From positions 1 through 39,886 of IMG/VR virus record IMGVR_UViG_3300033997_000582: DNA of 39,886 nt. One strand, 5' to 3'. Position numbers and translations under genes: made by a program. The stretch is from a virus. The first letter of the stretch is position 1, and each line of letters starts with the position of its first letter. The notes below the pieces were generated by a model. It was not told the origin of the DNA, made no database searches, and saw only the letters and a program-made list of their open reading frames with translations. Below are positions 16,822 to 34,259 of this stretch, in pieces.

Positions 16822-16835
16822 AGAAGGGTGGCGAA

Positions 16836-16917
16836 CCGTGCGCGGGTTGGTCGACCGGGGCTATGGGACCCGGCAGGGCATGAGCCCTCCCACGCACGGC
16901 CCGCCATAACGCGGGCA
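16836..16917 (-). ncRNA. P4 cI / P1 c4-like antisense RNA (candidate)
   Basis: Minus-strand RNA domain. A 7-bp closing stem (16836-16842 with 16893-16899, CCGTGCG/CGCACGG) encloses two smaller hairpins: AGGGC/GCCCT (16875-16888) and CCGG/CCGG presenting CCCATAG in its loop (16855-16873). A further hairpin, GCCCGC/GCGGGC, lies at 16899-16916. The single-stranded or loop segments GGGTCCCATAGCC and GGTCGACCAACCC are complementary to two flanking sites, at 16946-16971 and 16777-16821. This reproduces the seqA-seqB-seqC logic of P4 immunity and the a'/b' pairing of P1 c4 RNA. I recall a similar sequence in P4-like elements, but no covariance search was possible. Confidence 0.78.
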
Positions 16918-26779: not shown

Positions 26780-27202
26780 TCGCGTACCTCTGTGAAATTA
26801 GCGACTTTTTACCCCCTTAATCCGGTGGCAACAAGGGGGCGGGGCTGCCACTCCAGCAATGCACCGGCAACACGCCGAGAAAGCACCGGCAATGCGCCGT
26901 CAATAAATCACTTTCGGCTATCAGCGCCTGCGGCGCTGTCCCACCTGCCCCCACCTTTTCCAGAGGTGAGACACAGCAACCCCGCGCCACCTCTATCTGT
27001 TCCCTACTTCCCCACCTGTCCCACTTAAAAAAATAAATAGGTGCGCGCCCGCGAGCGCACGCATGCGCGCACCACGCGCACCCGCCCAGCGCATACGCAC
27101 AGGCAGGCGGTGGGACAGGTGGGGAGGTGGGACACGCCCAGCAACGGCGCGGCCCGCCTGCGCCCTACCTCTAAAAGCAGGTGGGCCAGGTGGGACACAA
27201 AC
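26780..27202. repeat. Noncoding region with iteron-like repeats and AT-rich patch
   Basis: About 420 bp without a convincing gene. Two direct repeats GCACCGGCAA-N2-CGCCG lie at 26861-26877 and 26883-26899, exactly 22 bp apart. A 15-bp inverted repeat CCCCACCTGTCCCAC / GTGGGACAGGTGGGG occupies 27010-27024 and 27110-27124, with related GGTGGGACA strings near 26937-26955, 27126-27133 and 27180-27197. TTAAAAAAATAAATAG at 27025-27040 is the only AT-rich stretch. It is followed by a strongly alternating purine-pyrimidine segment with the inverted repeat GGTGCGCGC/GCGCGCACC (27040-27048, 27065-27073). This could be a replication origin, the late promoter region, or both. Confidence 0.6.
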
Positions 27203-29827: not shown

Positions 29828-30047
29828 GCCTGCCACCATGCTTTTCCAATGCAGACTGGCATTCGATACACATCAGGCAGTCACGATCAGCCAGGGCCTG
29901 CCGCCGGGCCAGCGGAATCGGCTCATCGCACTCTTCACAAGCCAAGGCATGCACCGGCTTGAGCGCCATACGCTGCGCGTGCGCCTGTTCGCGGGCCTGG
30001 TCGTGAATGGCGCTCTCGCGCGCTGCGAGGTCAGCTGGATCAGCCAT
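29820..30047 (-). CDS. DksA/TraR-type zinc finger protein
   Basis: A 75-residue protein (MADPADLAARESAIHDQARE). The C-terminal C4 zinc finger CEECDEPIPLARR...CLMCIECQ is the DksA/TraR signature. TraR-like proteins bind the RNA polymerase secondary channel and mimic DksA/ppGpp, so it might tune host and phage transcription. Start chosen inside a longer frame because the upstream portion overlaps the CII-like gene. It lies between the regulator and primase genes. Confidence 0.88.
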   Translation of the reverse strand: MADPADLAARESAIHDQAREQAHAQRMALKPVHALACEECDEPIPLARRQALADRDCLMCIECQSALEKHGGRHV

Positions 30048-30558
30048 GGGCCACGTCCTCCGCATGACGCTGGCGCACGACCGCCCGCAGCTTGTACACC
30101 GCCTGCACCAGGCGCAGGGCCAGCAGCTCGAACTCGTCCAGCTCACCGTCATCCAGGCGGCCATCGGCCAGGCTCTTGGAGAGGTGCATGGTCACCCGGC
30201 TTTCATCGCTCAGCATCTGGCTGATCGCGGTCAGCAGCGAGGCCTCGGTGTCCGTATCACTCAGCTCGGAAACGTCGATGCCTACCCAGCCAATCGGCGA
30301 GAGCAGTGCATCCACAATGCGCGAGTCGCGCGTCAGGTCGAGGATCAGCTGCAGCTCATCCACGTTCAGCTTGTGCTTGGGGTTGGTGCCGGTGAGGCTC
30401 AGCTTGTGGCTAAGCGTGGTGGCGTTGATGTTGCCGTCTACGGCAGCGATGGCGGTTGCACCGCCGGGGTAGTCCTGCACAGCGTGATAGCACGCCTGTT
30501 TGAGGCTCAGCACGGTACGGCGCGCGCGCTCAATGCTGCTCTGCCAGAGTCGAGTCAT
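30040..30558 (-). CDS. CII-type phage regulatory protein (CP76 family)
   Basis: A 172-residue regulator, MTRLWQSSIERARRTVLSLK. YHAVQDYPGGATAIAAVDGN, TLSHKLSLTGTNPKHKLNVD and ELQLILDLTRD are the Phage_CP76 (CII-like) pattern: a helix-turn-helix followed by a helical C-terminus. ATG 30558 has TCAGGAG upstream. As second gene of the leftward transcript after cro, it occupies the CII position. Its leader contains two copies of CTCTCCACCACAGA and would be overlapped in antisense by the candidate small RNA at 30619-30832. Confidence 0.88.
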   Translation of the reverse strand: MTRLWQSSIERARRTVLSLKQACYHAVQDYPGGATAIAAVDGNINATTLSHKLSLTGTNPKHKLNVDELQLILDLTRDSRIVDALLSPIGWVGIDVSELSDTDTEASLLTAISQMLSDESRVTMHLSKSLADGRLDDGELDEFELLALRLVQAVYKLRAVVRQRHAEDVAHG

Positions 30559-30583: not shown

Positions 30584-30612
30584 GTGACCCCGCCGCCCCT
30601 GCTTGCTACAGT
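30584..30612 (+). promoter_or_regulatory. Candidate promoter of the three-loop small RNA
   Basis: -35 GTGACC (30584-30589), 17-bp spacer, -10 TACAGT (30607-30612). Each hexamer matches four of six consensus bases. Transcription would start near 30619, at a GTGGTCAC direct repeat (30619-30626 and 30634-30641). Confidence 0.4.
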
Positions 30613-30618
30613 TGCGGC

Positions 30619-30832
30619 GTGGTCACTCGTCAGGTGGTCACTTGCAACGGCCGATCTGTGGTGGAGAGACCGTTGCACCCCAGGCAGGGCACCCGCTCCG
30701 CGAGCGCCCTACCAAAACAGCCTGCTGATCTGTGGTGGAGAGGCAGGCAACCCTGGGCATCCGTGCCCAGGCAACCGGCAACACTGTGGTGGTGTGCGCC
30801 GGAGAAACGAGGCGCCCTAGGGCGCCTTTTTT
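30619..30832 (+). ncRNA. Candidate small RNA with three equivalent loop hairpins
   Basis: Plus-strand RNA of about 214 nt. Hairpin 1 pairs TGCAACGG (30643-30650) with CCGTTGCA (30670-30677). Hairpin 2 pairs GCCTGC (30720-30725) with GCAGGC (30743-30748). Hairpin 3 pairs CCGGC (30775-30779) and ACAC with GTGT and GCCGG (30798-30802). All three expose CTGTGGTGG-type loops; hairpins 1 and 2 share GATCTGTGGTGGAGAG exactly and hairpin 3 has TGTGGTG. Two spacer hairpins lie between (30686-30710 and 30752-30771), and the RNA ends in a perfect intrinsic terminator. The loop is the exact complement of the early mRNA leader at 31950-31965 and, in cis, antisense to the cII leader. Promoter and expression are inferred. 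Confidence 0.65.
30810..30832 (+). terminator. Perfect palindromic terminator between cro and cII
   Basis: AGGCGCCC-TA-GGGCGCCT is an 18-bp perfect palindrome followed by TTTTTT on the plus strand. On the minus strand it follows the cro stop directly but lacks a good T-tract, so it serves the plus-strand RNA better. A leaky tR1-like role for the cro-cII transcript is possible. Confidence 0.85.
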
Positions 30833-31069
30833 CTAGGCAGCCACCGATACCGAGGCGGGCGCCGGAAATAGGTCAGGAAGATCGGGGCGAAGCTCATGGC
30901 CTTGCACAGCATTGCCGCACGCACGGACAAGGGCAGGAACACGCTCCGCAGGAACGCCGCGCTTCTTCCATTGAGAGACAGCCATGGGGCTGACGCCGAG
31001 AGCGGCGGCCAACTTCCGACCGCCGCCGGCAGCCTTGATGGCTCGGTCGAGGGGGGCATCTTGAGACAT
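30833..31069 (-). CDS. Cro-like helix-turn-helix regulator
   Basis: A 78-residue protein, MSQDAPLDRAIKAAGGGRKL. GGGRKLAAALGVSPMAVSQW is a helix-turn-helix of the YdaS/Cro type with the recognition helix SPMAVSQWKKRG. It is divergent from the S24-type repressor gene with an 82-bp operator region between the two start codons, the cro-cI arrangement. It leads the leftward early transcript (cro, cII, DksA-like, primase, Q-like). No strong Shine-Dalgarno is visible before ATG 31069. Confidence 0.85.
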   Translation of the reverse strand: MSQDAPLDRAIKAAGGGRKLAAALGVSPMAVSQWKKRGVPAERVPALVRACGNAVQGHELRPDLPDLFPAPASVSVAA

Positions 31070-31099: not shown

Positions 31100-31152
31100 T
31101 AGACATTACGTTTATTTCAACGCCATGTCTATACCCGTAAACTTGGTGTTTA
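31100..31152. promoter_or_regulatory. Operator region with three CI/Cro sites
   Basis: Three 15-bp sites fit the consensus TAAAC-N5-GTTTA. TAAAC-TTGGT-GTTTA at 31138-31152 is perfect. TAGAC-ATTAC-GTTTA at 31100-31114 has one mismatch. TCAAC-GCCAT-GTCTA at 31117-31131 has two. The perfect site touches the first base of the cI start codon. A fourth site lies at 31927-31941. Exact promoters for cro and cI were not resolved. Confidence 0.7.
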
Positions 31153-31895
31153 TGAATACATCCGGCCAGCGATTACGCGATCACCTCGACAGACACGGCA
31201 TTTCCTATGCGGAATTTGCCAAGCGCATGGGCGTCGACCCGCAGCACGTGAACAACTGGTTCAAGCGCGGCGTGCCGAAGGCCCGAATATTCGAGGTGGC
31301 TGACGAACTGAAGATCGACCCGCGCGAGCTGGCCGAAGGCACCCCGCAGGCGCCCGCAGACAAAGCCAGACCAGGCATCAGCAATGAAGTCACCCCGCTC
31401 GAACCGCTACACCCGTGGGACAGCAACACCCCACTAGACCCGGACGAGGTAGAAGTGCCCCTTTACAAGGAAGTCGAGATTGCAGCCGGCAGCGGCCGCA
31501 CAGCAGTACGCGCCATTGAAGGACGTAAGCTCCGCTTTTCCTATGCCACCTTGCGCCAGGCTGGCGTAGATCCTGCCAACGCCTTCTGTGCCACCGTCAG
31601 CGGGGACAGCATGGCACCGCTGATCAACCATGGCGCCACCATCGGCGTGGACCGGGGCACCACCAATATCATTGATGGCGAGATCTACGCCCTGGAGCAT
31701 GACGGCATGCTGCGCGTGAAGACTCTCCACCGCCTGCCCGGCGGTGCCATCAGGCTCCGCAGCTTTAACAGCGAAGAGTTCCCCGATGAGATCTACACCC
31801 CCGAGCAGATCGCCGAGCAACGTATCGCCGTTCTGGGCTGGGTTTTCTGGTGGTCGGTGCTTCGATCCCGGCGCGGACCTACCGTTGCCAGATAA
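31152..31895 (+). CDS. CI-type repressor with S24 (LexA-like) peptidase domain
   Basis: A 247-residue prophage repressor. The helix-turn-helix covers residues 5-45 (SYAEFAKRMGVDPQHVNNWF). The C-terminal peptidase domain has the autocleavage Ala-Gly at 112-113 (EIAAGSG), Ser at 153 in SGDSMAPL and Lys at 190 in LRVKTLHR. RecA-stimulated self-cleavage would induce the prophage. ATG 31152 is chosen because MNTSGQRLRDHLDR is the natural start of the helix-turn-helix; there is no Shine-Dalgarno, so translation may be leaderless. An in-frame ATG at 31125 is the alternative. The operator overlaps the start. Confidence 0.93.
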   Translation: MNTSGQRLRDHLDRHGISYAEFAKRMGVDPQHVNNWFKRGVPKARIFEVADELKIDPRELAEGTPQAPADKARPGISNEVTPLEPLHPWDSNTPLDPDEVEVPLYKEVEIAAGSGRTAVRAIEGRKLRFSYATLRQAGVDPANAFCATVSGDSMAPLINHGATIGVDRGTTNIIDGEIYALEHDGMLRVKTLHRLPGGAIRLRSFNSEEFPDEIYTPEQIAEQRIAVLGWVFWWSVLRSRRGPTVAR

Positions 31896-31914: not shown

Positions 31915-31943
31915 TTGACACGATAATAAACACCGCGTTTAAT
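31915..31943 (+). promoter_or_regulatory. Early promoter with embedded operator
   Basis: -35 TTGACA (31915-31920), exactly 17-bp spacer, -10 TTTAAT (31938-31943). The perfect operator TAAAC-ACCGC-GTTTA (31927-31941) lies between and overlaps the -10, so CI binding would exclude RNA polymerase. Transcription should start near 31950 and read the 13-gene plus-strand operon. Confidence 0.85.
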
Positions 31944-31949
31944 TGCCTC

Positions 31950-31965
31950 GTCTCTCCACCACAGA
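31950..31965 (+). promoter_or_regulatory. Predicted antisense target at the 5' end of the early mRNA
   Basis: GTCTCTCCACCACAGA lies at the predicted transcription start and two bases before the Shine-Dalgarno region (GAGG, 31969-31972). It is a perfect 16-nt complement of hairpin 1 and 14-nt complement of hairpin 2 of the RNA at 30619-30832. Confidence 0.65.
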
Positions 31966-31978
31966 GCCGAGGTAAACC

Positions 31979-32155
31979 ATGCAATCCGCCACTCTGCACG
32001 TCCACCCGGCGTGCGCCTCCAACCGCCGCCTGATCGAGCGCCTGCAAGCCCAAACCGGCCTGCTCGTCATCATCAGCGGCGGCAAAGCCAAGCTGCAGCA
32101 GCGTAACGCCAGCACCGCCACCCCGACCGGCCCCTGGGGAGGTGATGCAGCATGA
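31979..32155 (+). CDS. Small first gene of the early operon, function unknown
   Basis: A 58-residue protein starting MQSATLHVHPACASNRRLIE, too short for usual length filters. ATG 31979 follows CGAGGTAAACC, with GAGG as Shine-Dalgarno. The N-terminal half is predicted to be beta/alpha (LQAQTGLLVIISGGKAKLQQ) and the C-terminus disordered. The stop overlaps the next start (ATGA). It may be needed mainly to couple translation of the operon, and it is the direct target for control by the antisense loop. Confidence 0.75.
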   Translation: MQSATLHVHPACASNRRLIERLQAQTGLLVIISGGKAKLQQRNASTATPTGPWGGDAA

Positions 32156-33465: not shown

Positions 33466-33927
33466 ATGAAAGACACCAAGCTACTCGACGAAACCCTGAT
33501 CAGCCTCCTGCGCATGCCCGAGGCCGAGCGCACCGCCGAGGTGATCAGCTCGCACCTGGCCCTGGCCACCACGGCTGCCGGCCTGAAACCGGACAGCAGC
33601 ACCGGCCTGCAGCTGGAGCACATGAAACTGGCCGGCGCAGTGGCGCGCCTCGCCGGCGACATGGGCGAAGGCTTCACCCACCGCACCGCCCTGCGTCTTG
33701 GGCCGGATCTGCAGGGCATCGAGCTGTTCGCCAGCATCGAGGCGGTCGGCAAGCGCGAGATCCGCTTCACCGGCTTCGGCTGCTCGGCCGAGCGCGTGCT
33801 GGCCCAGCTGCGCATCGCCATCAGCCAGCACGGCCAGGCACTCAGTGCCACCCAGCAGCAAGGCAAGGCGCGTTGGGGCGACCGCAACCCCCTGCGCATG
33901 CTGCCGCGTGAGGCCAAGCGCGCATGA
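33466..33927 (+). CDS. Early-operon protein, function unknown
   Basis: A 153-residue protein, MKDTKLLDETLISLLRMPEA. Residues 1-75 look helical (AERTAEVISSHLALATTAAG), and 80-130 alpha/beta (LQGIELFASIEAVGKREIRF, then CSAERVLAQLRIAISQ). ATG 33466 follows GAAGGT. The stop overlaps the start of the PrtN-like gene (ATGA). No motif recognised. Confidence 0.72.
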   Translation: MKDTKLLDETLISLLRMPEAERTAEVISSHLALATTAAGLKPDSSTGLQLEHMKLAGAVARLAGDMGEGFTHRTALRLGPDLQGIELFASIEAVGKREIRFTGFGCSAERVLAQLRIAISQHGQALSATQQQGKARWGDRNPLRMLPREAKRA

Positions 33928-34259
33928 GCCAGCACGACAACCAACCCCAGCTGCGCCTGCTGGCCCAGCCAAAGCCGGTGACGGTAGAGCTGCTGTTTCG
34001 CATGTTCGGAACGGTGGTGATCCCGGCAGAGGAGGTGCGCGCCAAGCTGTTCCGCAACCTCAACACCGAGCGCTTCAACCGCTTCCTGGGCACCCAACGC
34101 CTGCCCATCCCGGCCACCACCCTGGATGTCAGCACCAAGGCGCCCCGCTTCATCGAGATCCACCACCTGGCCGCCCACATCGAGCAACGCGCCGCCATCG
34201 GCGACGCCGAGCTGGAGAAGGCACTCACCCAACCACAGCAAGACCCCGAAGCCACCTGA
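33924..34259 (+). CDS. PrtN-like pyocin activator family protein
   Basis: A 111-residue protein. TVELLFRMFGTVVIPAEEVR, then LFRNLNTERFNRFLG, LPIPATTLDVSTKAPRFIEI and HHLAAHIEQRA match the conserved profile of the PrtN family, which in P. aeruginosa activates pyocin genes through P-boxes after PrtR cleavage. Here it sits in the CI-controlled early operon, so it would be expressed on induction. It may act on phage late genes, or on host tailocin genes. No P-box search was possible by eye. Confidence 0.85.
   Translation: MSQHDNQPQLRLLAQPKPVTVELLFRMFGTVVIPAEEVRAKLFRNLNTERFNRFLGTQRLPIPATTLDVSTKAPRFIEIHHLAAHIEQRAAIGDAELEKALTQPQQDPEAT

Follow-up and report, generated by a model that had tools for sequence, protein, structure and literature searches.

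A 214-nt RNA predicted on the plus strand between the cro-like and cII-like genes is, in the reading that we consider likely, a multivalent antisense RNA, probably activated by CII, which pairs with the 5' end of the mRNA from a pL-type promoter and dampens early lytic expression. In the analysis of the window (the whole stretch of 39,886 nucleotides), the signals of the RNA gene, its complementarity to the target and the covariation of both partners were computed, whereas its expression, dependence on CII, repressive action and effect on lysogeny were inferred. The features concerned are the following.

30040–30558 (−), CII-like activator gene, PF06892
30559–30583 (+), inverted repeat TGGCA-N15-TGCCA, possible binding site for an activator (CII-like) at the RNA promoter, conserved with unrelated spacers
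30607–30612 (+), -10 of the RNA promoter, TACAGT, predicted +1 at 30619
30619–30832 (+), predicted small RNA, 214 nt, from promoter signature, terminator and fold
30619–30641 (+), 5' hairpin GTGGTCAC/GTGGTCAC, plus-strand fold more stable in clades A and B
30643–30677 (+), loop hairpin 1, in which 30655–30670 is complementary to 31950–31965 (16 nt)
30720–30748 (+), loop hairpin 2, in which 30729–30742 is complementary to 31952–31965 (14 nt)
30775–30802 (+), loop hairpin 3, common core TGTGGTG only
30809–30832 (+), intrinsic terminator with six T, conserved on the plus strand
30833–31069 (−), Cro-like gene
31152–31895 (+), CI-like repressor gene with S24 peptidase domain
31915–31943 (+), pL-type early promoter TTGACA-N17-TTTAAT, a geometry shared by 99 of 110 distinct leaders
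31944–31976 (+), inverted repeat of the leader, expected to sequester the Shine-Dalgarno sequence in read-through transcripts
31950–31965 (+), target complementary to the loops of the RNA, at the predicted +1 to +16 of the early mRNA
31979–32155 (+), first ORF of the early operon, 58 aa, phrog_13491, function unknown

The initial annotation had described three hairpins with unrelated stems (TGCAACGG, GCCTGC and CCGGC(+ACAC) for hairpins 1, 2 and 3) around a common loop core, TGTGGTG, and this was borne out by sequence and fold. The region 30619–30832 (+) also holds spacer hairpins, besides the 5' hairpin, the loop hairpins and the terminator. Complementarity of the loops to 31950–31965 proved exact, as had been claimed, over 16 nt for hairpin 1 and 14 nt for hairpin 2. 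Dinucleotide shuffling of the RNA (1,000 times) yielded matches to the leader of up to 12 nt, and other segments of the window matched over no more than 9 nt. When 15,892 window sites were scanned, the leader was the strongest duplex partner of the RNA loops, with predicted pairing gains of -21.0 kcal/mol for hairpin 1 and -16.5 kcal/mol for hairpin 2. A terminator with six T was found as described, but not a perfect 18-bp stem: it is an 18-nt palindrome forming a stem of 7–8 bp with a 4-nt loop (30809–30828). As a second correction, the RNA, which is antisense to the stretch between cro and cII, begins about 60 nt ahead of the cII start codon and so leaves the cII ribosome-binding site uncovered. 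In phage Haddon a 'hypothetical protein', Haddon_CDS0011, is annotated over the RNA (locus L005, 3048–3188) and is probably spurious. In L008 (3368–3567), L070 and L179 the RNA is shortened to one loop matching the target, plus a terminator.

An activator-type signature, TGGCA-N14/15-TGCCAGTG-N20/21-TAnAnT, is kept in homologues despite unrelated spacers, with -10 variants TACATT, TAGAGT, TACAGT and TATAGT at a fixed spacing in 150 distinct copies; in L008 it stays with the RNA though displaced from the cII start. The half-sites of the inverted repeat are centered at about -38 and -58, some 20 bp apart, and the repeat thus fits an activator site. Binding of TGGCA-N15-TGCCA by the CII-like protein is an inference from conservation only, without binding data. 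The CII-like gene of PF06892, the family of phage 186 CII, adjoins the RNA in all 147 distinct loci that could be tested, and both a CII-family gene and an activator-type promoter beside it, as in the aQ or 186 pE type, are present. The 186 pE promoter has a position matching that of the RNA promoter. A consensus promoter scan reported neither this promoter nor the pL-type one, because it demands an A at position 2 of the -10; both rest on conservation. A second TGGCA-N15-TGCCA, possibly due to chance, lies at window positions 26826–26850 without a -10, and in the prophage at L049 the target leader is kept, whereas cII and the RNA have apparently been lost.

Plus-strand terminators were found in 110 of the 150 distinct copies and minus-strand terminators in none, and wobble pairs in the terminator stem (21 G-U versus 1 A-C) showed a plus-strand bias, although a terminator was not obvious in many clade B phages. 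The stems of the loop hairpins showed no strand preference (107 G-U versus 120 A-C), a smaller wobble tally for clade C leaned to the minus strand, and a comparison of plus- and minus-strand free energies did not separate the strands. From the sequence signals, without transcript data, the existence of a plus-strand RNA is judged very probable, and the hairpins of the complementary cro-cII mRNA may have a role too.

In the target region, the pL-type elements are TTGACA (31915–31920) and TTTAAT (31938–31943), separated by 17 nt, and +1 is predicted near 31950. Among the 99 distinct homologous leaders in which a promoter was scored, 83 have the ACCACAGA core 14–15 nt after the end of the -10. 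Transcripts starting at the predicted +1 lack the 5' arm of the leader inverted repeat, form a weak hairpin only and do not hold the Shine-Dalgarno sequence. In read-through transcripts the predicted leader hairpin buries this sequence, and pairing with the RNA partly frees it. The outer stem of the repeat is changed compensatorily in L138 (CGTTT/AAACG), and the repeat is inferred to silence read-through from cI. A precedent for such silencing of read-through transcripts is the T4 lysozyme mRNA. Downstream of the first ORF, for whose 58-aa product structure prediction was poor (pLDDT 67), lie a PrtN-like gene, a weak YfbR-like match, a C5 methylase and AlpA, with an integrase on the opposite strand. 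The PrtN-like gene (pyocin activator, PF11112) occupies window positions 33924–34259 within the early operon.

Beyond the first isolated phages, a search with the target ORF led to 53 further loci, nearly all with the RNA, and a promoter-signature scan, a leader scan and additional genome loci brought the fetched loci with the RNA to 223, which include some contigs fetched twice. A recognisable target was also present in 146 of the 223, giving 59 distinct loop/target combinations. Of 399 Pseudomonas species genomes, 49 contained the promoter signature and 2 its reversed pattern. Hosts of the temperate phages bearing the RNA are Pseudomonas and Azotobacter, and the isolated phages LPPA36, Haddon and vB_Pae_U5 (U5) carry both RNA and target. 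LPPA36 and Haddon agree by 94% in the RNA region and by 98.7% in leader and ORF; their cro-cI blocks give no DNA alignment, and BLASTP found no significant match between their CI proteins. As judged from this comparison, the RNA/target pair survives a swap of the whole cro-cI block lying between its halves. No Rfam family matched the RNA with default or permissive settings, and literature searches found it described nowhere.

The complementary match to a phage mRNA encoded elsewhere than the RNA gene is conserved and co-varies, as in trans-acting antisense RNAs of the sar/c4 type. Across the 146 loci and 59 combinations, own pairs had a duplex energy of -20.54 versus -19.90 (s.d. 0.11) for permuted pairs, a value reached in 0 of 300 permutations, which is not a strict probability since related sequences are not independent. 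GTGGTGG/CCACCAC became GTGGTAA/TTACCAC (GG/CC to AA/UU) in L046, L047, L050, L052 and L053. GTGGTAG/CTACCAC (AG/CU) was found in L158, L172 and L226 and, independently, in another clade (L217), with two loops changed. A further compensatory change, CAGAC/GUCUG, occurred in L087, L163 and L102, and a C-to-U change in the target was kept as G-U in L055, L081, L090, L156 and L215. Four loci (L064, L130, L174 and L220) have an uncompensated A-C at the loop/target pair, and in L084 and L209 the target was absent from the locus DNA examined. The RNA tree requires five loop changes, with one or two of the automatic target calls in that analysis being unreliable. Several targets were found only under relaxed criteria, and the invariance of the core arises partly by construction, the target search pattern having fixed most of it. 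Independent divergence of loop and 31952–31965 in homologues, which the initial annotation had named as grounds for refutation, was looked for, and the pair was found to co-vary instead.

A second target was found in the cro leader. Nine loci (L012 and L015 types) carry UUCUCCACCACAGAGC just ahead of the cro start, and this copy has almost no hairpin. Such copies lie near position 4010 in L012, L015, L016 and L028 (3371 in L026), and one is also present in L188. Sites with GTGGTAAAA upstream of cI in clade C were considered as matches to the RNA and rejected, as they look like parts of repressor operators.

In the proposed mechanism, a promoter just upstream of the cII-like gene and directed away from it, probably activated by the CII-like protein at TGGCA-N15-TGCCA, would yield the short terminated RNA (30619–30832), whose hairpin loops would display UCUGUGGUGG or its core several times. 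Contact between a loop and the initial 16 nt of the pL-type early mRNA would seed a duplex that grows to 14–16 bp. The predicted duplex ends a few bases short of the Shine-Dalgarno sequence, inside the ribosome footprint, and should therefore block translation of the first ORF, leaving the message exposed to decay. Blocked initiation is the simplest outcome of the duplex, mRNA protection not being excluded. Since the early operon encodes PrtN-like and AlpA-like proteins, its dampening would favour the lysogenic outcome. The sequence of the RNA is also a perfect antisense match to the mRNA between cro and cII, and some relatives have an RNA that matches the cro leader. The inference of a multivalent antisense RNA made at the outset is supported by covariation and by the conserved plus-strand promoter signature and terminator, its expression and the direction of its effect remaining unproven.

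The strongest rival is a motif common to both early transcripts, with the minus-strand early mRNA as the functional molecule: hairpins with CCACCAC loops between cro and cII, together with the same motif in the pL leader, would be nut- or put-like sites for a shared factor. Read on the minus strand, the loops have the very sequence of the pL leader motif rather than its complement, their cro-cII location is that of nutR, the loop stems fold equally on either strand and the clade C wobbles lean to the minus strand. We nevertheless regard such sites as unlikely, given the conservation of the plus-strand promoter signature and terminator, the weakness of the pL leader hairpin from the predicted +1, the near absence of a hairpin from the cro-leader copy, and a first pL gene unlike N protein.

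It seems quite unlikely that the effect of pairing on the pL mRNA is activation or stabilisation, through 5'-end protection or by opening the Shine-Dalgarno hairpin of longer transcripts. Pairing at the extreme 5' end would make protection possible, and would partly free the Shine-Dalgarno sequence buried in read-through transcripts. However, from the predicted +1 this sequence is free of the leader hairpin, so that opening is unneeded, the duplex overlaps the ribosome footprint, and a CII-type promoter suggests an anti-lytic role. The place and direction of the promoter fit pE, as would be expected if the transcript were mainly the leader of a CII-activated message toward cI with the loops minor in trans; a strong terminator is missing in many clade B phages and a plus-strand ORF follows the RNA in some relatives. 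The terminator ahead of cro in 110 of 150 distinct copies and the loop/target covariation make such a leader very improbable.

Among known systems, P22 sar RNA (68/69 nt) targets ant, pairs near its translation start and supports lysogeny (PMC12197685). The RNA described here is likewise small and phage-encoded, and would pair close to the translation start of a phage mRNA; unlike sar, it repeats the pairing sequence on several loops, and its target is more than 1 kb away, at the 5' end of the early mRNA. The c4 RNA of P1/P7 (Rfam RF01695) is a structured antisense RNA with pairing sequences in loops that acts around a ribosome-binding site (PMC12197685). The RNA studied here would share these traits but differs in target and promoter, and identity with C4 was rejected, no covariance-model match (RF01695) being found at the RNA locus or in three homologue loci.

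Lambda OOP, a cis-antisense RNA against cII, promotes lysis (PMC12197685). Both OOP and the present RNA are antisense-strand RNAs in the cro-cII-replication region, but OOP is antisense to the 3' end of cII and starts between cII and O, whereas the present RNA lies between cro and cII, outside cII, and has trans targets and a CII-type promoter. The analogy with OOP drawn initially is therefore weak: with its target far away in trans and its promoter positioned as CII-activated ones are (186 pE, lambda pRE/paQ), the RNA is more likely pro-lysogeny, probably a brake that helps the phage become dormant. Repeated loops with a trans target are not known from either lambda aQ or the 186 pE transcript. 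Lambda aQ (paQ) is a 220-nt CII-linked antisense RNA (PMC12197685), and phage 186 CII activates pE (PMC7708051). STnc6030 of BTP1, also a prophage antisense RNA, differs in its length of 786 nt and in being antisense to late genes; it blocks superinfection (PMC7067206).

If the antisense reading is true, the RNA represents a widespread, unrecorded family of phage regulatory RNAs that would take part in the decision between lysis and lysogeny, have an unusual architecture of multiple loops and possibly confer cross-immunity among phages whose repressors differ. As a tentative extension, which we hold to be possible though doubtful, the recognition code would be shared across phages with unrelated CI proteins, and a multivalent prophage RNA would silence the early mRNA of heteroimmune relatives entering the cell, providing repressor-independent immunity in addition to a lysis-lysogeny brake. 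The isolated carriers LPPA36, Haddon and vB_Pae_U5 make the RNA directly testable. A separate C4 antisense RNA is encoded by the same phage at window positions 16824–16911 (−), where RF01695 gave its sole match in the window, with 71.3 bits.
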